Source: Myxococcales bacterium 68-20 (lineage in GTDB: Bacteria; Myxococcota_A; Polyangia; Polyangiales; Polyangiaceae). From it: a DNA stretch of 64,000 bases. The stretch lies in NCBI GenBank assembly GCA_001899635.1, contig MKVQ01000008.1:80428-144427 (forward strand), written 5' to 3'. A program made the translations under genes and the position numbers. Under the pieces are notes generated by a model, which saw only the letters and a program-made list of their open reading frames with translations, did not search any database and was not told the DNA's origin. Each line of letters begins with the position of its first letter. The first letter of the stretch is position 1. Below are positions 2,856-23,622 of this stretch, one piece after another.

Positions 2856-4286
2856 TCAGGCTTCGCGGCGGACGTACTCGAAGTCGACGGTGCGGCCCTT
2901 GATGCCCTGCTTGGGAGCGGCGATCCAGTTGGCCATCTGCTTCGGATCGAAGACGGGCTTCTGCATCAGGCTCTGGACGTACTGCTTGTCCGCGTCCGAC
3001 GGGAGCCACTCGTTCTTCTTCGACTCCCACTGTTCGGCGGTGAGCGGGTTGCCCGCCGGGTCGAAGTGGATGCCCGCATAGATGCCGATGTGGCGGTGGA
3101 AGCGGCGGCTCGGCAGCTTCAGCTCGAAGGGGATGCCGTGTGCGGCGATGGTGCGGTTCCACTTGTCGACGCCGCGCTGGCAGTCCTCGACGTACGCGTC
3201 GCGGAGGACCTCGTTCATCGCGTTGCGCATCGCGATGTCCTCGCGGACGATCTTGCCGTCTTTGACGACCTCCATCGCATAGCTGCCCTCGAGGGCCTTG
3301 TGGTCCTCGAACTGGTCCTCCTTCGCGCGGCCCTTCATGCCTGTGGCGAAGTAGGTGGCGGCGTTCGAGCTGATCTCGCCGCCGAAGAGGTCGAGCGAGA
3401 GCGTGTACCAGAGGTTCAGGTACTTCTGCATCGTCGGCAGATCGATGAGGCCGGCGGCGCGCACCTGCTCGACGCTGCCCCACTTCTTCTCGGCCATCTG
3501 CTGCGCGGTGCGATCGACGACGCGGAGCACGCCCGTCTCGCCGACGAACATGTGATGCGCCTCTTCCGTCAGCATGAAGCGGGTCGTGCGCGAGAGCGGA
3601 TCGAACGCGCTCTCGGCGAGGGCGAGGAGCTGGAACTTGCCGTCACGGTCGGTGAAGAACGTGAACATGAAGAAGGAGAGCCAGTCGGTGCACGGCTCGT
3701 TGAACGCGCCGAGGATGCGCGGCTTGTCCGGATCGCCCGAGCGGCGCTGGAGGAGCGCGTCGGCCTCCTCGCGGCCGTCGCGGCCGAAGTAGGTGTGGAG
3801 GAGGTAGACCATCGCCCAGAGGTGGCGCCCCTCCTCGACGTTCACCTGGAACAGGTTCCGGAGGTCGTAGACGCTCGGGCACGAGTGGCCGAGCAAGCGC
3901 TGCTGCTCGACGCTCGCCGGCTCGGTGTCGCCCTGCGTGACGATGATGCGGCGGAGCGCGTTGCGGTGCTCGCCCGGGACTTCCTTCCAGACGGGCTCGC
4001 CGTAGTGGTCGCCGAAGCCGATCTTCCGATCGGCGACGGGGTCGGCGAGGAAGATGCCCCAGCGATAGTCGGGCATCTTCACGTAGTCGAAGTGTGCCCA
4101 GCCCTCGCTCGTGACGCTGATCGCGGTGCGGAGGAAAATGTCGTCCTTCTGGAAGCCGAACGGGCCCATCTCGTTCCACCACGAGAGGAAGTTCGGCTGC
4201 CACGCCTCGAGCGCACGCTGGAGCCGCTTGTCGCTCGAGAGATCGACGTTGTTCGGGATCTTGGTGTCGTTGACGACGGTGGACAT
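2856..4286 (-). CDS. boxB: Benzoyl-CoA 2,3-epoxidase, oxygenase subunit BoxB
   Basis: BoxB, the di-iron oxygenase component of benzoyl-CoA 2,3-epoxidase, which inserts one oxygen atom of O2 into the ring of benzoyl-CoA in the aerobic box pathway. At 476 residues it matches the family length. The six iron ligands described for BoxB are found at the expected spacing, two residues later than in the Azoarcus enzyme: E122, E152 and H155 (EEGRH), D213 (FTDRD), E242 and H245 (EEAHH). The start ATG at 4284-4286 is 14 bases after the boxC stop, so boxC-boxB form an operon. The reductase partner BoxA is not in this window, so electrons must come from a gene elsewhere. A strong hairpin follows the stop. 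Confidence 0.97.
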   Translation of the reverse strand: MSTVVNDTKIPNNVDLSSDKRLQRALEAWQPNFLSWWNEMGPFGFQKDDIFLRTAISVTSEGWAHFDYVKMPDYRWGIFLADPVADRKIGFGDHYGEPVWKEVPGEHRNALRRIIVTQGDTEPASVEQQRLLGHSCPSVYDLRNLFQVNVEEGRHLWAMVYLLHTYFGRDGREEADALLQRRSGDPDKPRILGAFNEPCTDWLSFFMFTFFTDRDGKFQLLALAESAFDPLSRTTRFMLTEEAHHMFVGETGVLRVVDRTAQQMAEKKWGSVEQVRAAGLIDLPTMQKYLNLWYTLSLDLFGGEISSNAATYFATGMKGRAKEDQFEDHKALEGSYAMEVVKDGKIVREDIAMRNAMNEVLRDAYVEDCQRGVDKWNRTIAAHGIPFELKLPSRRFHRHIGIYAGIHFDPAGNPLTAEQWESKKNEWLPSDADKQYVQSLMQKPVFDPKQMANWIAAPKQGIKGRTVDFEYVRREA

Positions 4287-4300
4287 GGTTGGGGCTCCGC

Positions 4301-5986
<1,686 letters not shown>

Positions 5987-6026
5987 CGTCCCGATGGTCT
6001 ACGCCGGGACACGGACCTCGGCAAGT

Positions 6027-6066
6027 AGTATAGTGCGCATGTCGTGGCCATAACGCAGTATAGTGC
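6027..6066. promoter_or_regulatory. Direct repeats in the boxC-boxR divergent promoter, probable regulator operator
   Basis: The 10-mer AGTATAGTGC occurs at 6027-6036 and again at 6057-6066, exactly 30 bp apart (about three helical turns). The copies are followed by GCAT and AT, giving TGCGCAT and TGCAT. TATAGT/TATACT inside each copy also resembles a -10 box on either strand. BoxR and BzdR regulators of other bacteria bind TGCA-containing sites, so these copies are good candidates for the binding site of the adjacent boxR product. The second copy overlaps the first codons of boxR, which suggests autoregulation or a leaderless boxR transcript. Assignment is by position and by analogy. Confidence 0.6.
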
Positions 6067-6871
6067 ATCGAAGACGGCCGGAGCGCGGACGAGCGCTTCG
6101 AAGAGCGCGGGCGACCGTCGCGCGCGGCTCCTCGAAGGCCTCGGCGCGGCGGTGCGGGCCCTCCGGACCGAGCGGGCATTGACGCTGCGCGCGCTCGCAA
6201 AGGTCGCCAGCGTCAGCGAGCGCTTCCTGGTCCAACTCGAGGCCGGTGAGGGGAACATCTCCGTCGCGCGGCTCGAGGACGTCGCCGAAGCGCTCGGGAC
6301 GACCGGGGCCGAGCTGCTGGCTCAGGCGTCCCGGCCGCACACGAAGAGCTCGAGCTCGAGTCGCGCGGTCCTGGCGCTCGTCGGTCTCCGCGGCGCCGGC
6401 AAGAGCTCGATCGGCGCTGCGGTCGCGCGGCGGCTAGGGCTCCCGTTCATCGAGCTCGACGAGGCGATCGTCCGCGAGGCACAGATGACGCTGCCGTCGA
6501 TCTTCGAGATTCACGGTGAGGCCTACTACCGCCAGATGGAGCGCGACGTGCTCCGGCGCCTCCTCGACTCGAGCAAGCCGGCCGTGCTCGCGACCGGCGG
6601 CTCGATCGTCACCGACGCCGAGACGTGGGGCCTCCTCCGGAGCCGCGCACGCACGGTCTGGCTCAAGGCGACCCCGCGCGAGCACTGGGACCGCGTCGTT
6701 GCCCAGGGCGACGTGCGACCGATGCGCGGACGTCCGCGCGCGATGAATGAGCTTCGTCAGCTGCTCACCTCGCGGACCCCGCTCTACGAGCAGGCCGACG
6801 TCACGGTCGACACGTCGGGCCGCACGGTGACCGACGTCGTCGAGAGGCTCGCCTCGATGATGCCGGCGTGA
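6044..6871 (+). CDS. boxR: BoxR-type transcriptional regulator (XRE helix-turn-helix plus shikimate-kinase-like domain)
   Basis: A 275-residue regulator with the two-domain layout of BoxR/BzdR. An XRE helix-turn-helix covers about residues 33-90 (LTLRALAKVASVSERFLVQLE). It is followed by a shikimate-kinase-like domain from about residue 108, with a P-loop GLRGAGKSS (114-122) and the ATGGSIV segment. In this family the kinase-like domain is a sensor that binds benzoyl-CoA; BoxR represses box genes until benzoyl-CoA is present. GTG at 6044 is the only possible start: a stop lies in frame at 6026-6028 and the next in-frame start codon is inside the helix-turn-helix domain. It is divergent from boxC. 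Confidence 0.93.
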   Translation: MAITQYSASKTAGARTSASKSAGDRRARLLEGLGAAVRALRTERALTLRALAKVASVSERFLVQLEAGEGNISVARLEDVAEALGTTGAELLAQASRPHTKSSSSSRAVLALVGLRGAGKSSIGAAVARRLGLPFIELDEAIVREAQMTLPSIFEIHGEAYYRQMERDVLRRLLDSSKPAVLATGGSIVTDAETWGLLRSRARTVWLKATPREHWDRVVAQGDVRPMRGRPRAMNELRQLLTSRTPLYEQADVTVDTSGRTVTDVVERLASMMPA

Positions 6872-6998
6872 CTACGCCTCGCCAGCGACGCCCGAGGTGA
6901 ACGGGCGCGCCGCCCTGCCGCTCTCGCGCCCGTCGAGCGCCAGCGACAGGGCGGGGGAGTCGATCTCGTGGAGCCAGCACCGCCCGTCGGAGTAACCT

Positions 6999-7808
6999 GT
7001 GGTGGTGCGCGCATCTCTCTTGAGGCTCGGTGGTGGTGCCGCCCTGGCAATGGCCCTCTTTCGCTGCACCTCGTTCGATGGCACGTCGTCGGTGAACGTC
7101 CTCGGCGATGGCGACGCGTCGTTCGATGCGGCCAGCGAGGAGGATGCGCGGAGCTCAGATGCTGGCGTCCACGCGGCGCCGCGATGTGACTCTGGTTGTC
7201 CTGGCACCGCGGGCTCGTGCGCGGTCAGAGCAGGCGCAACGTGCATCGACGCGACGGAGGTGACCGTCGCCGACTACCGTGCGTTCGTCGAGAACGCCCA
7301 GGGAACCACGGTCGATCCCGGAGCGCCGTGTGATCCAGTTTCCGTCGAGCCGCTTGGGGCGTTGCCCGACGATGCGCTCCCGATGACCAAGGTGACCTTC
7401 TGCGAGGCGCGAGCGTTCTGCCTCTGGGCGGGAAAGCGTCTGTGTGGGCGCGTCGGTGGAGGGCCGCTCGATCCGACCGAATCGCGCACGCAGAAGTCGG
7501 CGTGGTTCAACGCCTGTACGGGTGGAGTGTCGGACGACTTCCACCCGCTGTCCGACGGGGGGTGTCAGGTCGACGCGAGCGCACCCCGCGCTGCCGGCGC
7601 CGGATGTCAGGGAGGCGTTCCGGGGCTGTTCGACATGATCGGCAACGTGTGGGAGTGGGTCGATCAGCCGAACGAGGTGGAGGCGCCCTCGGCGATCATC
7701 ATGGGTGGCGGCTACGACGATCCGACGAGGGCGAGCTGCCAAGGTCTCCTCGCTGCGGCCGTCGACTTCCGCAGCGCCTCGGTCGGCTTCCGTTGTTGCT
7801 CGCCTTAG
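6999..7808 (+). CDS. FGE-sulfatase-fold (SUMF1-like) lipoprotein
   Basis: A 269-residue predicted exported protein. The N-terminus (RLGGGAALAMALFRCTSFDG) looks like a lipoprotein signal with Cys near residue 23, although Arg at -1 is unusual. The rest matches the formylglycine-generating-enzyme/sulfatase-modifying-factor fold: IDATEVTVADYRAFV, VTFCEARAFCLWAGKRLC, GNVWEWVD and the terminal SVGFRCCSP are the usual landmarks. Bacterial lipoproteins with this fold are common in myxobacteria and are generally not true FGEs, so enzymatic activity should not be assumed. The GTG at 6999 is preceded by GGAG; two further GTG codons follow directly. It lies between box genes without obvious metabolic connection. 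Confidence 0.82.
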   Translation: MVVRASLLRLGGGAALAMALFRCTSFDGTSSVNVLGDGDASFDAASEEDARSSDAGVHAAPRCDSGCPGTAGSCAVRAGATCIDATEVTVADYRAFVENAQGTTVDPGAPCDPVSVEPLGALPDDALPMTKVTFCEARAFCLWAGKRLCGRVGGGPLDPTESRTQKSAWFNACTGGVSDDFHPLSDGGCQVDASAPRAAGAGCQGGVPGLFDMIGNVWEWVDQPNEVEAPSAIIMGGGYDDPTRASCQGLLAAAVDFRSASVGFRCCSP

Positions 7809-7816
7809 GCCCAATG

Positions 7817-7833
7817 GGCGCTCGGTGAGCGCC
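7817..7833. terminator. Hairpin between convergent genes
   Basis: A perfect 7-bp stem GGCGCTC/GAGCGCC with a GGT loop, in the 59-base gap between the FGE-fold lipoprotein (ends 7808) and the convergent membrane-protein gene (ends 7868). It has no U-tract and could work in both directions. Confidence 0.55.
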
Positions 7834-7867
7834 AACGGCGAACTCGGAGCACCAACGGGCGAGCGAG

Positions 7868-9088
7868 TCAGTCCTGCGAGCGCGGTCGCGCCGCGCGCGG
7901 AGGTTCGAACGGCACCTCGTCGTCCGACTCGTCGAACGCGATACGGAGGTGTGAGGAATTGGGCCCGCGCGCGACGGCGTCGATCGCCACGCGGAGGCGA
8001 GGGGAGGCGCTCTTCTGCCCGATCGAGACGAGGCGCTCGCGCTCTTCGTCGTCGAGGCGCGCGCGGAGCGCGAGGGCTGCGCCCTGGCGCGCGGATGGAT
8101 CGGCGCCCGGGTTCTCGAGCACTGCCCAGAGCCGCTCGCGTGGAATCGCGATCATGCGATAGCCGTAGGCGTCGGCCGTGCCGAGGATGTTCATCTCGTC
8201 GATCCAGGCGTCGAGATTGCGTTCGCCGCGCGTGAGGAGCGCTTCGTCTTCGGCCGGGGCCAGCGCACGGTGGTGGGTGAGCCCTTGGTCGATCCGCTCG
8301 AGGATCGCGATGCGCCGTGCCGCCTCTGCATCGGCGCGGTGGGTGAGGCGGATCTCGATCTCGCGCTCGTCCTCGAGCTCGAGCGCCACCCCGAGCGGCG
8401 TGGCGCGGGCCTCGCGGAGGAGGCCGAACGGCACGAACCGCCGCCGTCCCGCCCAACGGAGGAGGATGCCGTCCTCGCCGATCGCGATCTTCTGCGGGAG
8501 GACCATCGGCAGCGCGATCACCCCGTAGAGCCCGAGGACGACGAGGACCGTCCACCCCGGCATATGACGCAGGAGGTTGAAGAGGATCCACGGCGAGGTC
8601 GTGAGGATGATCGTGAGCCAGCGCATCCGGTGCGCCCACGGCGGCAGAGCCTCGAACTCCTCGACCTCGTGGGGTGACCGCTCGAGGGTGTCGGCGAGTG
8701 CCTGAGCGATTCGTGGCGAGTCGACGTGGACGATCCGTGAAGGCGCGAGCCCGCGCGCCTCGACGATGACGGAGTGACCGCCGAAGGGCTCGTCCCGGAC
8801 GCGTGTTCGGAGGATCGTCTGCCTCGGGAGGACGAGCTCTCCGTCGACGCTGAGACCGCGACTGTCGGCCCGCACGCGACGCCGGCCCCGTCCACGTCTC
8901 GCGCTCGCCGCGCTGCGGGAGAGGGCGATGAAGGAGAGCGCGGTGAGGAGCGCGGCGGTGGCGACGTACGTCGCCGTCGTGACTGCCGGTTGCAGTCCGA
9001 TGAACACGAGGAGCGCCGCCGAGAGCCCTGCCGCCGCGAGCGGCCAGCCGAGGCTGCGTCCTTCGGATACTTCGGCGTCGACGCGCAT
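7868..9088 (-). CDS. Uncharacterised membrane protein
   Basis: A 406-residue protein of unknown function. There are four likely membrane helices: a pair at about residues 14-32 and 38-57 (WPLAAAGLSAALLVFIGL; TYVATAALLTALSFIAL), and a second pair at about 156-175 and 178-198 (WLTIILTTSPWILFNLL; GWTVLVVLGLYGVIALPMVL). Between the pairs, and again after the second, there are short beta-rich segments (GLSVDGELVLPRQTI; KIAIGEDGILLRWAGRR) that look like bacterial PH-like modules. The C-terminal 150 residues are polar and helical. The layout recurs among myxobacterial hypothetical proteins. It is not linked to the box pathway by sequence. Its start at 9086-9088 is divergent from boxD. Confidence 0.75.
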   Translation of the reverse strand: MRVDAEVSEGRSLGWPLAAAGLSAALLVFIGLQPAVTTATYVATAALLTALSFIALSRSAASARRGRGRRRVRADSRGLSVDGELVLPRQTILRTRVRDEPFGGHSVIVEARGLAPSRIVHVDSPRIAQALADTLERSPHEVEEFEALPPWAHRMRWLTIILTTSPWILFNLLRHMPGWTVLVVLGLYGVIALPMVLPQKIAIGEDGILLRWAGRRRFVPFGLLREARATPLGVALELEDEREIEIRLTHRADAEAARRIAILERIDQGLTHHRALAPAEDEALLTRGERNLDAWIDEMNILGTADAYGYRMIAIPRERLWAVLENPGADPSARQGAALALRARLDDEERERLVSIGQKSASPRLRVAIDAVARGPNSSHLRIAFDESDDEVPFEPPRAARPRSQD

Positions 9089-9264
9089 GCCGACATCGAT
9101 CGTAGCTCGCGTTCCCGGCGCGTTCAGGCGAGCAGCTCGGGGCTCGCGCTCCGAACCACGCTGCGCTCCGGGAGCGCGTCAACGCACCGCTCCGTGATGG
9201 CGATGGCCGGCGCGGACGGCTCGGCTTGGAAACCGCTGGCCCGCGGTGTTATGTCGACGACGCG

Positions 9265-10824
9265 ATGATCGAGCTAGCAAGCTTCGTGTCGGGCAGGTGG
9301 GAGAAGGGGAGCGGCAAGGCAGCCGAGCTCGTCAATCCGTCCACGGAGGAGGTCGTCGCGACGACGTCGACCGAGGGGATCGACCTCGGCGCGGCGCTCG
9401 CGTTCGCGCGAGAGCGCGGCGGGCCGGCCCTGCGCGCGATGACCTTCACCCAGCGCGGCGAGATGCTCCGGGCGATGTCGCGCGCGACCCACGCCAAGCG
9501 CGACGAGCTCATCGGGCTCGCGATCACGAACGGCGGCAACACGCGCGGTGACGCGAAGTTCGACATCGACGGCGCGATCGGCACGCTCGCCGCGTACGCC
9601 GATCTTGCTCCCGATCTCGGCGACACGCACGTGCTCGCCGACGGCGACGGTGTCCAGCTCGGGCGTGGTGCGCGGCTCTTCGGGCAGCACCTGTACCTGC
9701 CGCGCACCGGCGTTGCCGTCCACGTCAACGCGTTCAACTTTCCCGCCTGGGGTCTCGCCGAGAAGGCCGCGACGGCGCTGCTCGCGGGCATGCCCGTCGT
9801 GTCGAAGCCGGCGACGAGCACGGCGCTCGTCGCGCATCGAATCGTCGAGATCCTCGTCGCCGACAAGATCCTGCCCGACGGCGCGCTCTCGTTCGTCTGC
9901 GGAGCGCCGGGCGATCTGCTCGAGCGCCTCGACGGTCAGGACGTGCTCGCGTTCACGGGCTCGAGCATCACCGCCGCGAAGCTCCGCGAGGGGAAGAGCG
10001 TCGTCGTCCGCGCCACGCGGATCAACGTCGAGGCCGACAGCCTCAACGCGGCGGTGCTCGGTCCGGACGTCGAGGTCGGCTCGGACGTGATGCACCTCTT
10101 CGTCGGCGACGTGGTGCGCGAGATGACCCAGAAGACGGGCCAGAAGTGCACCGCGATCCGTCGCATCTACGTGCCGAAGGAGCGTGTGGCCGACGTCGTC
10201 GAGCTCCTCCGCGAGCGCCTCGCCGCGATCAAGGTCGGCAACCCGGCGTCCGAAGAGGTCACGATGGGCCCCGTCTCGACGGCGCAGCAGCTCCGTGACG
10301 TGCGCGAGGGCGTGAAGAAGCTCGAGTCGTGCGCGAAGGTCGTCTTCGGCACGACCTCGGGCGTCGACGGCATCGGCGCTCCGGCGGGCAAGGGCTACTT
10401 CGTCACGCCGGTCCTCCTCCAGGGGGACAGTCCGAAGGCCGGCGATGCGGTCCACGAGCACGAGGTCTTCGGTCCGGTCGCGACGGTGATGCCGTATTCG
10501 AGCCCGGCCGAGGCGATCGCGCTCGTCGCGGCGGGCGGCGGTGGTCTCGTCACCAGCGTCTACTCGGACGACAAGGACTTCACGCGCACGATGGTCCTCG
10601 GGATCGCTCCGTTCCACGGTCGTCTCGTCCTCGGCTCGTCGAAGGTCGCCGGCCAGGCGTTCCCGCCGGGCATGGCGCTCCCGCAGCTCGTTCATGGCGG
10701 CCCGGGCCGCGCGGGCGGCGGCGAAGAGCTCGGCGCGCGTCGCGGCATGACGTTCTACATGCAGCGCACCGCCCTCCAGGGCGATCGCGCCGTCCTCGAA
10801 GCGCTCGTCGGCAAGAAAGGCTGA
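9265..10824 (+). CDS. boxD: 3,4-dehydroadipyl-CoA semialdehyde dehydrogenase BoxD
   Basis: A 519-residue aldehyde dehydrogenase of the BoxD/PaaZ-N type, which oxidises 3,4-dehydroadipyl-CoA semialdehyde (the BoxC product) to 3,4-dehydroadipyl-CoA with NADP+. Landmarks are the N-terminal FVSGRWEKG, the cofactor-binding [11 protein letters not shown] segment, TGSS at the Rossmann turn, E256 as general base (NVEADSLN) and C295 as nucleophile ([10 protein letters not shown]). The C-terminal [14 protein letters not shown] is typical of this subfamily. The ATG at 9265 is used because homologues start with a short segment before FVSG. It lies about 2.4 kb from boxR and on the same strand, with two unrelated genes between. 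It completes the ring-opening part of the pathway. Confidence 0.93.
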
Positions 10825-19737: not shown

Positions 19738-21645
19738 ATGCCTCACCGGTCTGCGTCTGAATCGCTTTGGCGCTTCCTCGGCACGTTCGCCCTCGGTGCT
19801 GCCGCGGTCGCCTGCGGGAGCGACGTCGATCCCAGCGCCGATCCGACGACGAAGCCCACCCCGGGCGAGCGCGGCCCGGACTGTGGCGATGACGGCTTCA
19901 CGCCGTGCGTCGAGCCGGGGGGAAAGTGCACGGGCGATGACGACTGCGCGGGCCGCTGCGTCGATGCCAAGTGCGCGGAGCCGACCCATGACGACGGCAA
20001 GAGGAACCTCGACGAGAGCGACATCGATTGCGGTGGCGCGACCGCGCCGATCTGCGCCGATGGCCAGCGTTGCGCGGCCAACACGGACTGCGCAGGACTG
20101 TGCACCGACGGCAAGTGCGCGACCGCCACCCACGGCGACGGGAAGAAGAACCTCGATGAGACCGACATCGACTGTGGCGGCGCGACCGCGCCGACGTGCG
20201 TAGCGGGCAAGACCTGTCTCATCGACAAGGACTGCGAGGGGCTCTGCACCAGCGGCACTTGCGCCGCTCCGAGCCATGAGGACGGGAAGAAGAACCTCGA
20301 CGAGACCGACGTCGACTGTGGCGGCGCGACCGCGCCGGGCTGTTTCGTGGGCAAGGTGTGCAGCGTCAGCAACGACTGCAACCTCCAATACTGCAAGGCC
20401 GGCGCCTGCGCGCAGCCTCTCACCGACGACAACATCAAGAACGGCGCCGAGACCGACGTCGACTGCGGTGGCCCCACGCTGACCGAAGGCGCCCTGAACG
20501 TCACGCCTTCGCGGTGCGCTCTGACGAAGACCTGCGCTGCGGACAGCGACTGCGCGAGCGGCGTCTGCTCCGACACGAAGGTGTGCGTCGAGGCGCCGAG
20601 CTGTCGTCCGCGCCATGGCGGCGCCACGTGCGGCACCGGCGAAACCGGCCAGGCGGGCGCCAACCACGAGAGCTGCTGCAAGACCCTCCCTGTCTCCGGC
20701 CTGACGATGAGTCACATGGGGGTCACCAAGCAGGTCTACGTCGACAAATACGAGATCACTGCCGGCCGCGTCCGCGAGTGGGTCCGGGCGATCCGTGCGC
20801 AGTACGGCGGCGTGGGCAACGTTCGCGCGTGGGTCACCGCCAAGATGGCGGCCGATTCGCTCGTGCAGACCCAGCTCTCGGCTCACACCGCGTACTTGCC
20901 CTCGCGCGAAGACGGCGAATCCTACGCCTTCCCCAAGTCCGGCGGCGGCACCACCGCGGTCGACATCGGCATGATGAACCAGCTCGGACCGACCTCGTAC
21001 CATCGCGGGCCGGGCCTGGGCGCGCCCACCGCCACGAGCGGCTGCGGGATGTACGACGGCGCATTTGGCCACCGCACGTACTGGTTCGACGCAGCCGAGC
21101 GCACCTACTTCGGCGAGATTCCCCGTCCGGTGACGACCAAAGAGCAGCTCGACGAGAAGTCGATGAACTGCCTGACGCCGGCAATGTACGCCGCGTTCTG
21201 CGCGTGGGACGGTGGCTACCTCGTGACCCAAGCGGCCGCGCAGGCGGCCTATGGCCCCGACAACTACCCGTGGGGCTCACAGGCGCCGAAGACGGACCCG
21301 CAGAAGCGCGCCAACGTCAACAACGGCGTAACCGCCTTCAGCCCGGCCAACCCGCCGCGCTACGTCTATCCGATCGTCAACTACGGGACGTTCGAGCAAG
21401 ACTTCACGCCGGTCATCGCCGCGCCGGGGCGCTTCCCACTCGACGTCAGCCCGGTGCGGCCGGCGAACGACTCGTGGATGGACTTTGGCGGCAACATGAT
21501 TGAAGTCGTCCAGAACGGCACCGCATTCTCGGGCTACGCCGGCGGCTCGTGGGAAGGCCACGAGTCCGGGCGGGCGATGAACGGCGCCGTCGTCGCCTAC
21601 GACAAGTACGGTAAGACCGGCGCGCGCTGCATGCGCCTGCGGTGA
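19738..21645 (+). CDS. Cys-rich-repeat lipoprotein with FGE-sulfatase-like domain
   Basis: About 635 residues. The lipoprotein signal (SLWRFLGTFALGAAAVAC) is followed by four Cys-rich repeats of 48 residues, each with a CAGLCTDGKC-type start and an LDETDIDCGG core, at about residues 70-245. A further Cys cluster follows. From about residue 330 the protein has the FGE-sulfatase fold: YVDKYEITAGRVREWV, MYAAFCAWDGGYLVT, the Asp-containing FGGNMIEVVQ in place of GNVWEW, and the terminal GARCMRLR. It is probably a ligand-binding or structural surface protein rather than an enzyme. The ATG at 19738 was chosen to fit the signal peptide. It lies 131 bases after the two paralogous lipoproteins. Confidence 0.82.
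   Translation: MPHRSASESLWRFLGTFALGAAAVACGSDVDPSADPTTKPTPGERGPDCGDDGFTPCVEPGGKCTGDDDCAGRCVDAKCAEPTHDDGKRNLDESDIDCGGATAPICADGQRCAANTDCAGLCTDGKCATATHGDGKKNLDETDIDCGGATAPTCVAGKTCLIDKDCEGLCTSGTCAAPSHEDGKKNLDETDVDCGGATAPGCFVGKVCSVSNDCNLQYCKAGACAQPLTDDNIKNGAETDVDCGGPTLTEGALNVTPSRCALTKTCAADSDCASGVCSDTKVCVEAPSCRPRHGGATCGTGETGQAGANHESCCKTLPVSGLTMSHMGVTKQVYVDKYEITAGRVREWVRAIRAQYGGVGNVRAWVTAKMAADSLVQTQLSAHTAYLPSREDGESYAFPKSGGGTTAVDIGMMNQLGPTSYHRGPGLGAPTATSGCGMYDGAFGHRTYWFDAAERTYFGEIPRPVTTKEQLDEKSMNCLTPAMYAAFCAWDGGYLVTQAAAQAAYGPDNYPWGSQAPKTDPQKRANVNNGVTAFSPANPPRYVYPIVNYGTFEQDFTPVIAAPGRFPLDVSPVRPANDSWMDFGGNMIEVVQNGTAFSGYAGGSWEGHESGRAMNGAVVAYDKYGKTGARCMRLR
19945..20470 (+). repeat. Tandem repeat, 144-bp unit (three full copies plus a partial fourth)
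   Basis: Units start at 19945, 20089, 20233 and 20377, exactly 144 bp apart, each encoding 48 residues with the core DGKKNLDETDIDCGG. The first three are close at DNA level (GGCGCGACCGCGCCG recurs in each); the fourth diverges after the DCGG core. The exact spacing suggests duplication within this gene. Confidence 0.85.
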
Positions 21646-21733
21646 GCGGGTGGTCGGCTCGCCGTCCAGTCGACAGTGGCGCTGCATGCGCCTGCGGTGA
21701 GCGGGTGGTCGGCTCGTCGTCCAGTCCACGATG
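21624..21733 (+). repeat. 55-bp tandem duplication across a stop codon
   Basis: Copy 1 at 21624-21678 contains the last codons and the TGA of the Cys-repeat lipoprotein. Copy 2 follows directly at 21679-21733 and begins with the same GCGCTGCATGCGCCTGCGG. Four or five of 55 positions differ. Copy 2 is non-coding. Confidence 0.85.
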
Positions 21734-21835: not shown

Positions 21836-21870
21836 TTGCGGCTTCTTTCGAAGTTTGATTGCCTGCTCGA

Positions 21871-22536
21871 ATGAGCGACGATGACAAGCTCCGAACTGTT
21901 CGCTGCCCGGAGCCGTTGACGCCGCTGTTCGCCGACGCCGAGCGGATCATGGGGTCGTTCTTCGGCGATCTACAGCGGGCTCCGGAGCGGGGCGACATCC
22001 AGATCAGCGGCGTTCGTTATCTGTTGATGCGAACGGATTCGCTTGCGATCGAGCTGCATGCGGAGCTGCGCAAGACGTTCGGCGAGGCCGGAGCACGCCA
22101 GATTCGCTACAAGCTCGCGCGCGCATGCGGCATGCGCGACGCGCGGATGTTCCATGAGCGCCTGAACGTCGTCGAGCCGACGATGAAGCTCGCCCTCGGT
22201 CCCGTTCACTTCGCCCACGTCGGGTGGGCAAACGTGAACATCTACCCGGAGAGCGCGCCGCAGCCCAACGAGGACTACTTCCTGGCATACGACCACCCGT
22301 ACTCGTTCGAGGCGGCATCCTTCCTCGAAAACGGCATCACTTCGAAAGAGCCCGTTTGCTTCATGAACGCGGGCTACAGCGCCGGCTGGTGCGAAGCGAG
22401 CTTCGGCGTCGAGCTCAAGGCCGAGGAGCTCACGTGCCGGGCGCGCGGGGACGCCAACTGCGTCTTCGTCATGGCGCACCCGCGACACTTCGAGCGACTC
22501 GCTCGCGAGTACCGCGAGAAGAGCGGCCTCGCGTGA
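21871..22536 (+). CDS. XylR_N-V4R domain sensor protein
   Basis: A 221-residue soluble protein with no DNA-binding domain. The N-terminal half matches the XylR N-terminal aromatic-sensing region (SGVRYLLMRTDSLAIELHAE; ARACGMRDARMFHERL). The C-terminal half is a V4R (4-vinyl reductase) domain with the Cys pattern EELTCRARGDANCVFVMAHP, which in XylR/DmpR-type sensors binds small aromatic ligands. The ATG at 21871 is the best start. The next gene, a GAF-STAS protein, begins 21 bases after the stop, so the two should be co-transcribed and may act together as a signal-input pair. The ligand is unknown; the benzoyl-CoA genes 11 kb away make an aromatic compound plausible. Confidence 0.82.
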   Translation: MSDDDKLRTVRCPEPLTPLFADAERIMGSFFGDLQRAPERGDIQISGVRYLLMRTDSLAIELHAELRKTFGEAGARQIRYKLARACGMRDARMFHERLNVVEPTMKLALGPVHFAHVGWANVNIYPESAPQPNEDYFLAYDHPYSFEAASFLENGITSKEPVCFMNAGYSAGWCEASFGVELKAEELTCRARGDANCVFVMAHPRHFERLAREYREKSGLA

Positions 22537-22557
22537 GCGCGAAGGGGATCTCCGCCG

Positions 22558-23622
22558 ATGGACACGCGCGCAATCGATCCTCAATCCATTGAGCGTATGC
22601 GCGAGGAGCGAGCCCTTCTCTCCCGACTGGTGCGTCGGCGAAGCGAAGCGCTTCAGTTCCTCCAGCTCATGACCAAGAGCTTCACCTCGCTCCTGCTCAA
22701 GGACAAGAGCGAGATCGGCGACACGCTCAGCTCACTGGTCCTCACCTTCTTCGAGGCCCGCTTCGGCGCGGTCGTGTTGCGCTCGGCGAGCGGGGATCTG
22801 ACCGTCTCGGGCTGTCAGGGCGCGAGCCCGGCGGCACTCACCGGCGCCGCGGCCGTTTCTGCGCTGCAAGCCTTGATGGACGACAAGACCGCCCAGCTCG
22901 TGGATGCGGAGCGTGCAGAGCGCCTCTGGCCTGACCGCCCCGCGCCCATGCGCGGCGGCTTCGCGTGCTGCACGATCGAGAGCAACGACACCGCGGTCGG
23001 CCTCATCCTCGTCTCCGACAAGTCCTCCGGTGAGAGCGTGGCGGACGAGGAGCTCGAGTTCCTTGCGGCTGCGGCCGGCCTTGGCGGCATGGCGCTTTCG
23101 AACGCCGACCTCCTCGTGGCGCAGACCGCGTTGACCGGTGACGTTCAGCGGCAGGTGGAGCAAGCGAAGCGTGAGTCCGCCGAGAAGCAGCGCGCCCTCG
23201 ACGAGCTCGATCGCAAGCTCGAGGTCATCGAACAGCAGAAGGCGGCGATCCGGGAGCTGTCGACGCCGATCCTCCAGGTCGGGGACGACGTTCTGGCGCT
23301 GCCGCTCATCGGCAACGTCGACGTCGATCGCAGCGAAGACGTCATGGAGAAGCTGCTGACCGAAGTGACGGCGCGGCGAGCGAGCTTCGTCATCATCGAC
23401 GTCACCGGTGTCCTCATGGTGGACACGAGTACGGCGAGCTACCTGCAGCGGATGGTGAGGGCGACGGAGCTGCTCGGTGCTTCGTGCCTCCTCACCGGCA
23501 TTCGTCCGGCAGTCGCGCAGGCGCTCGTGTCCGTCGGTGCGGAAATGTCCGAGCTCACGACCCTCCGCACTCTGCGAGAAGGACTCGCGGAGTGTTCGAG
23601 ACGCCAGCAGCGACGGCGGTAG
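22558..23622 (+). CDS. GAF-coiled-coil-STAS protein (RsbR-like)
   Basis: A 354-residue signalling protein. A GAF-like domain covers about residues 45-190. A coiled coil follows at about 195-235 (VQRQVEQAKRESAEKQRALD, then RKLEVIEQQKAAIREL), and then a STAS domain of the RsbR type from about 238: STPILQVGDDVLALPLIGNV is the RsbR signature, and IIDVTGVLMVDTSTA carries the phosphorylatable Thr/Ser positions (DTSTA). RsbR proteins assemble into stressosomes and relay signals by RsbT-like phosphorylation. No RsbS/RsbT gene is present here, so the partner must be elsewhere. It is paired with the V4R sensor upstream. Confidence 0.88.
   Translation: MDTRAIDPQSIERMREERALLSRLVRRRSEALQFLQLMTKSFTSLLLKDKSEIGDTLSSLVLTFFEARFGAVVLRSASGDLTVSGCQGASPAALTGAAAVSALQALMDDKTAQLVDAERAERLWPDRPAPMRGGFACCTIESNDTAVGLILVSDKSSGESVADEELEFLAAAAGLGGMALSNADLLVAQTALTGDVQRQVEQAKRESAEKQRALDELDRKLEVIEQQKAAIRELSTPILQVGDDVLALPLIGNVDVDRSEDVMEKLLTEVTARRASFVIIDVTGVLMVDTSTASYLQRMVRATELLGASCLLTGIRPAVAQALVSVGAEMSELTTLRTLREGLAECSRRQQRRR

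Follow-up and report, generated by a model that had tools for sequence, protein, structure and literature searches.

What does a V4R sensor that carries no DNA-binding domain do directly upstream of a GAF-STAS protein? The usual hosts of V4R sensors are gene switches or kinases. Here, in a stretch of 64,000 nucleotides (the window, C8:80428-144427 of a genome of 11.9 Mb in 52 contigs), the sensor is a protein of its own, and an earlier note on this DNA had read the two genes as a way of feeding an aromatic signal into a stressosome-like system. We consider it probable that they constitute one signalling unit, with the V4R protein serving, as a split sensor, a partner-switching (stressosome-like) complex of RsbR type. 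The features on which this reading rests are the following.

21871..22536, + strand: free-standing XylR_N-V4R protein, 221 residues from the ATG; an in-frame TTG lies at 21859
21970..22242, + strand: XylR_N match (Pfam), residues 38-128 counted from the TTG
22339..22470, + strand: V4R match (Pfam), residues 161-204 counted from the TTG; contains the predicted zinc residues
22537..22557, + strand: intergenic gap of 21 bases, with a Shine-Dalgarno-like AAGGGG at 22542-22547
22558..23622, + strand: GAF-STAS (RsbR-type) protein, 354 residues
22690..23043, + strand: GAF-like head, residues ~45-162 of the model; GAF_3 in the orthologue
23044..23259, + strand: long helix linking head and STAS, residues 163-234 in the AlphaFold2 model
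23269..23547, + strand: STAS domain of RsbR type, by Pfam and by sequence match to solved RsbR
23425..23427, + strand: Thr290, aligned with the first RsbR phosphothreonine
23521..23523, + strand: Ala322, aligned with RsbR Thr205 (B. subtilis) / Thr209 (Listeria)

The ATG at 21871 agrees with the starts of the orthologues in the alignment. Pfam recognises XylR_N (5.1e-11, 42.6 bits for a cut-off of 23) and V4R (1.2e-10, 41.8 bits for a cut-off of 31) in the product, both above the curated cut-offs; it found no third family, and neither an AAA+ nor a DNA-binding domain. As these are the sole matches, no DNA-binding domain is seen in this protein, and the earlier description of a free-standing sensor holds, as does the spacing of exactly 21 bases to the next gene. 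The AlphaFold2 model (mean pLDDT 95.8, from 31 aligned sequences) has its best solved fold matches in two phenol sensor domains, those of PoxR (6.5e-12) and MopR (1.4e-11), with a TM of ~0.7 (Foldseek), and the sequence search against solved structures is consistent with this (MopR, 1.2e-8). Lower in the fold search come a vinyl-4-reductase family protein of M. jannaschii and TRAPP subunits. The predicted zinc site is made of Cys163, Glu186, Cys189 and Cys197, numbered from the ATG, and is invariant in all 31 aligned rows. In the available part of a study of DmpR, phenol is held between His100 and Trp128 and zinc by three cysteines and one glutamate, printed as Cys151, Glu172, Cys177 and Cys185 (PMC7264223). 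The cysteine spacings that follow from this text, 26 and 8, are those of Cys163, Cys189 and Cys197 in the window; the aligned glutamate stands 3 residues before the second cysteine, as in MopR, whereas the number printed for DmpR in the same text would give 5.

Third-position GC is 0.84 in both genes of the pair. Their neighbours look unrelated to them: upstream lies a reading frame of 662 residues, and downstream a convergent gene with weak family matches only. Right before the V4R gene, at 21624-21733, a 55-base tandem duplication (second copy 93% identical) spans the end of the upstream frame.

The second protein had been taken for an RsbR-type GAF-STAS protein, and this was borne out, the STAS domain by its closeness to RsbR and the GAF domain by way of an orthologue and the model. 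Pfam finds STAS in it at 2.6e-13; GAF was not found by Pfam in the window protein itself and is matched as GAF_3 (1.6e-8) in its orthologue at L040, and the N-terminal part of the AlphaFold2 model resembles GAF structures. The best solved sequence matches of the STAS domain are RsbR of Vibrio vulnificus (1.5e-25) and of Listeria (~2e-24), and the STAS part of the model resembles the Listeria stressosome as well as RsbS of B. subtilis, with 7b0u as the top Foldseek match. The model (mean pLDDT 89.6) places a sensor domain and a linker helix N-terminal to STAS, as in RsbR-type proteins; its pTM of 0.55 means that the positions of the domains relative to each other are loose. Of the two RsbR phosphothreonine positions, the first, Thr171 in B. 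subtilis, is Thr290 in the window protein and the second is Ala322. Among nine aligned GAF-STAS proteins, the second position is Ala in the window protein and in L012, Ser in L042 and Thr in the other six; the first is Ser in L012 and Pro in L042 (Plesiocystis). Some GAF-STAS members may thus be degenerate, given the Ala of the window protein at the Thr205 position and the Plesiocystis protein without Thr at either position. According to the accessible text of one paper, severe stress is required for the phosphorylation of Thr205 in B. subtilis RsbR, which limits the signal, and Ala at its Listeria equivalent led to higher transcription of two sigma-B genes (PMC9237128).

Conservation of the pair was one of the checks that the earlier note had called for. 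Searching the V4R protein against the 317 genomes of the class (E up to 1e-72), we found the orthologue to be rare: it occurs in 10 genomes, that of the window included, which span three families (f1, f16 and f17). In nine of the ten (G000, G001, G197, G262, G284, G380, G392, G394 and G473) a GAF-STAS gene lies directly downstream, so the pair is conserved, with a single exception; for comparison, the window's genome has only 16 STAS matches in all. Locus L040 appears to belong to G473, as its RsbS is identical, and the G284 locus is a near copy of L040. The exception, G404, has a V4R orthologue (75% identical) and no GAF-STAS neighbour, and with it the class-wide search rejects a universal conservation of the pair. 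Elsewhere G404 has one match to the window GAF-STAS protein, 58-60% identical over the STAS portion only, whose gene is accompanied by RsbS, RsbT and an RsbX-like stretch; Pfam found no GAF in that protein. At its V4R orthologue (L184 1141-2636) we noticed a Roadblock/LC7 gene that follows on the same strand and, on the other side, genes resembling type IV pilus assembly, read by eye. A GAF-STAS protein also occurs without V4R, at L132, where it is 39-40% identical and stands in an RsbS-RsbT-RsbX gene run.

Within its genus the V4R orthologue is present in 2 of 12 genomes, and the window copy is 71-74% identical to copies in other families and 55% identical to the copy in its own genus. This greater closeness to the copies of other families suggests a history of transfer or loss. 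The trees of V4R and of the GAF-STAS partners have low support in both cases, too weak to show or to exclude co-inheritance; the GAF-STAS tree puts the V4R-less L132 inside the pair set, and a small V4R tree with G404 added is unreliable, since L083 joins G404 there by a long, poorly supported branch.

Are RsbS and RsbT encoded beside the pair? RsbS follows it in four loci, and RsbT is visible in three of these: L040, G197 and G392 share the order V4R, GAF-STAS, RsbS, RsbT-like kinase and a second HATPase, with an additional RsbX-like stretch in G197, and in G284 the contig ends after the RsbS that lies downstream of the pair. Against solved RsbS proteins the L040 RsbS reaches 3.4e-25, and a serine of it aligns with a serine in the segment that contains the RsbS phosphoserine. 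In the stretches examined, neither RsbS nor RsbT was found beside the pair in the other five of the nine genomes (G000, which is that of the window, G001, G262, G380 and G394). The G001 pair faces, tail to tail and at a distance of 33 bases, another RsbR-like STAS gene, whose product is 80% identical to one encoded at a hub in the window's genome. The RsbS/RsbT homologues that the earlier note had proposed to look for in this genome are found at that hub, which lies at ~9-16 kb of C8, on the same contig as the pair and ~90 kb from it. The locus (L064, G000:C8:6000-16000) has RsbX-, RsbT-, RsbR- and RsbS-like genes, followed by a gene that resembles CheB by eye, another RsbT-like gene and a phosphatase of SpoIIE type. 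The product of this second RsbT-like gene and the kinase part of the L040 RsbT share 53% identity; the RsbX-like gene falls below the Pfam SpoIIE cut-off, yet its product shares 35% identity with the L179 RsbX-like protein (1.3e-25). The window pair itself is an orphan, with no adjacent RsbS and RsbT. With no such genes beside it, RsbS beside four orthologous pairs and a hub on the same contig, the window GAF-STAS protein is best said to work like an RsbR-type stressosome protein, and not to be a proven member.

A V4R domain meets an RsbR-type STAS domain in a second form. The window's genome also encodes XylR_N-V4R-STAS in one chain of 360 residues (C43:154338-155420), and among the 377 genomes of the phylum such fusions, matched along nearly their full length, number nine copies in eight genomes, that of the window included; the others are 40-52% identical to the C43 copy. 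One copy (G301:C27) is without a locus, and eight were examined. RsbS and RsbT lie directly downstream of the fusion in three of these eight loci (G257, G382 and G391), followed in G257 and G391 by an RsbX-like phosphatase; in the flanks of the other five neither was seen, L105 being judged by a listing in which the fusion itself is uncalled.

Do pair and fusion go back to one event? In a V4R tree of 66 rows, the eight pair-type rows group with the V4Rs of histidine kinases and the eight fusions with those of sigma-54 activators, and the branch between the two sides has 100/100 support on both. The nearest relatives of the window V4R are thus histidine-kinase sensors and not the STAS fusions. 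An AU test rejects all STAS-linked V4Rs as one group (p 1.7e-5); the pair set forms one clade with modest support (82/81), and the fusion L108, with a degenerate V4R, sits on a long branch. The rows come from loci obtained beforehand and not from every match: 18 candidate loci were left out (14 repeats, L078 and L109, which equal G284, and the partial L098 and L099), as were G404, the own locus of G473 and the fusion copy G301:C27. Group labels follow motif patterns and the lists of pair and fusion loci; those of L097 and L100 (kinase) and of L033, L035, L036, L038 and L129 (sigma-54) were assigned manually and not by domain search, and L128, labelled as standing alone, may be a sigma-54 activator. 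Since the split of the tree and the AU test both reject one origin, V4R and RsbR-type STAS proteins are, on the sequences compared, linked at least twice, and these two separate origins speak more strongly than any other finding for a functional link. The proposed tie of V4R to RsbR-type partner switching therefore stands, on nine pairs in ten genomes, four loci with RsbS, the independent fusions and the RsbS/RsbT-like genes of the genome, and its core is well supported by genomics; the part that concerned an aromatic ligand, to which we return below, is not supported.

The same evidence bears on other readings of the pair. Adjacency could reflect co-transcription under a shared condition, with no contact between the two products, the V4R protein being a separate ligand carrier, a scavenger or an enzyme of V4R/TRAPP-like fold. 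Stand-alone V4R-type folds of unknown role do exist, as the M. jannaschii protein and the TRAPP subunits illustrate, and each partner is met without the other, GAF-STAS in L132 and V4R in G404. We nevertheless hold this to be unlikely, as the genes adjoin in nine of ten genomes, a single-chain V4R-STAS protein has arisen separately, and the close V4R relatives are input domains of kinases. Those relatives could also be taken to mean that V4R acts chiefly in trans on a different output, such as a histidine kinase or a Roadblock/LC7 protein, and that its STAS neighbour is secondary, all the more as a free-standing V4R relative precedes a hybrid histidine kinase in L083 and the G404 orthologue precedes its Roadblock/LC7 gene. 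However, the constant neighbour of the orthologues is GAF-STAS (9/10) and not a kinase, which leaves this explanation very improbable.

A different objection concerns the window copy only, which might be the decaying orphan of an RsbRST module with which it was acquired or inherited, having lost RsbS, RsbT and one regulatory threonine and with them stressosome signalling. The missing neighbours, Ala322 at the second phosphosite, the orthologue in only 2 of 12 genus genomes, and a V4R closer to the copies of other families (71-74%) than to that of its genus (55%) would all fit such decay. Yet both frames are intact, the zinc residues of V4R and Thr290 are kept, four other pairs persist without adjacent RsbS/RsbT, and an RsbST-like hub is present on the same contig; we rate this explanation as distinctly improbable.

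Taking the two genes as one signalling unit, how could it work? In known stressosomes, as the consulted sections of one paper describe them, sensor domains perceive stress, RsbT phosphorylates RsbR and RsbS and is released, and RsbX resets the system (PMC9237108). The V4R protein is predicted to be a zinc-stabilised small-molecule receptor with the fold of the MopR/DmpR sensory domain, and is probably a dimer. Filling of its hydrophobic pocket would change its contact with GAF-STAS, most likely at the N-terminal helix and the GAF head of the latter, which would itself be seated by its STAS domain in an RsbR/RsbS shell. The altered contact would change the phosphorylation of the shell by the RsbT-like kinase and so the release of the kinase. 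RsbS and RsbT would come from the same gene run in the f17 relatives and in trans in the window's genome, most plausibly from the C8 hub. The receptor subunit would thus act on an RsbR-type protein, and this in turn would insert into a shell that draws its remaining parts from genes at other places. We put forward more tentatively, and with some doubt, that the receptor is detachable: a soluble V4R protein would dock in trans on the GAF-STAS turret, the shell would read both GAF and V4R ligands, and the link would have evolved again by fusion, with the His and Trp of the pocket kept. If this were true, the fusions would form stressosomes for which a small aromatic ligand could be predicted.

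Which ligand, then? The earlier note had pointed to benzoyl-CoA genes nearby, and these are real. They form an aerobic benzoyl-CoA (box) cluster at 2856-10824 of the window, 11-19 kb from the pair:

2856-4286: BoxB, aerobic benzoyl-CoA (box) cluster
4301-5986: BoxC, aerobic benzoyl-CoA (box) cluster
6044-6871: benzoate-catabolism-type regulator, box cluster
9226-10824: 3,4-dehydroadipyl-CoA semialdehyde dehydrogenase, box cluster

The positions of DmpR His100 and Trp128 are occupied in the window V4R by Phe114 and His142, and the residues that mark a phenol sensor are thus missing. Phe and His stand there in all pair-type rows (8/8) and in all kinase-type rows (25/25), whereas the fusions have kept His and Trp in 7 of 8 rows each, and the sigma-54 rows each of the two in 14 of 16. 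The zinc residues are kept in 8/8 pair-type and 7/8 fusion rows. The loss of the His/Trp pair in one type and its retention in the other suggest that the pair-type V4R likely senses something other than simple phenols, and make the V4R-STAS fusions candidate phenol-type sensors. With all 25 kinase rows showing the Phe/His of the pair, a ligand class may be common to the pair and kinase V4Rs. A V4R-histidine kinase is also encoded in the window's genome (L010 589-2247, G000:C3).

Of 15 genomes tested for BoxB, 11 have it, and all 11 carry the pair or the fusion; no BoxB turned up in G026, or in G197, G284 and G392, where RsbS accompanies the pair. BoxB lies within 20 kb of the pair or fusion in 2 of the 11, the window's genome (~17.6 kb) and G391 (~4 kb), and elsewhere on other contigs or megabases off, a count that is a lower bound because these are draft genomes, in which another contig does not exclude nearness; the pair contig of G001, of 4.5 kb, allows no judgement. 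Benzoyl-CoA as the V4R ligand, or an aromatic of its class, is not supported by this pocket, by the pairs with RsbS in genomes where BoxB was not found, or by a linkage of 2/11.

How far do known systems resemble this one? Stressosome RsbR proteins (the B. subtilis RsbR paralogues, YtvA, those of Listeria and the globin-RsbR of Vibrio) have in common with the window protein a C-terminal RsbR-type STAS domain, an N-terminal sensor, a linker helix and the first-site Thr, and the orthologues and fusions described here stand in the same RsbR-RsbS-RsbT(-RsbX) order. In the sources at hand, seen in part, the sensor of known RsbR proteins belongs to the same chain, as a globin-type domain or as the blue-light sensor of YtvA; here a separate sensor lies beside GAF-STAS, and in the fusions V4R itself is the N-terminus. 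The window protein further differs by its Ala at the Thr205 position. The Vibrio RsbRSTX system, as covered in the available part of its description (PMC9237108), has the RsbR-S-T-X order and a ligand-binding sensor input, as here, but its haem globin senses O2 and the V4R fold is a different one. On the side of the sensor, the sensory domains of XylR, DmpR, MopR and PoxR share with the window V4R the fold (best match 6.5e-12), the zinc-site residues and the cysteine spacing; the window protein lacks their AAA+ and DNA-binding domains, has Phe/His for His/Trp and has a STAS neighbour. The histidine kinases of the Myxococcota that carry V4R (L010, L013 and L014 among others) are its closest large V4R group, 39-52% identical and with the same Phe/His positions in 25/25 rows, and unlike the window pair they hold V4R and kinase in one chain.

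In the open-licence PMC literature we found no report of V4R joined to a stressosome or to STAS; a V4R fused to photoactive yellow protein is noted in the accessible portion of one paper (PMC12826048). The activating signals of most stressosomes are described as unclear in the parts available of two others (PMC9237108, PMC4976288). With the split pair, a separate receptor protein would prove to be a further route by which inputs reach a stressosome. The fusions keep the DmpR-type His and Trp in 7/8, and these seven include L102 and L104, two of the three that precede RsbS/RsbT. They would make a stressosome-like system for which a ligand class could be guessed and then tested in vitro.

Some observations stand beside the main subject. 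In G270 (L083 1492-3611) a hybrid histidine kinase comes directly after a free-standing V4R, and the two could be another split sensor and output. In G391 (L181 43-9828) BoxC-BoxB lies ~4 kb upstream of the V4R-STAS/RsbS/RsbT/RsbX-like run, and the V4R half of the fusion has lost residues of the zinc site and of the pocket, which gives the look of a sensor in decay. Expanded STAS and SpoIIE proteins and putative RsbRST clusters have been described in Sorangium, as far as the excerpt of that paper goes (PMC2887360). In G024 and G029, two genomes of the same family, every scored candidate (35 of 35 in each) was a STAS match, with >100 candidates beyond those scored, pointing to a large STAS expansion in these two genomes.
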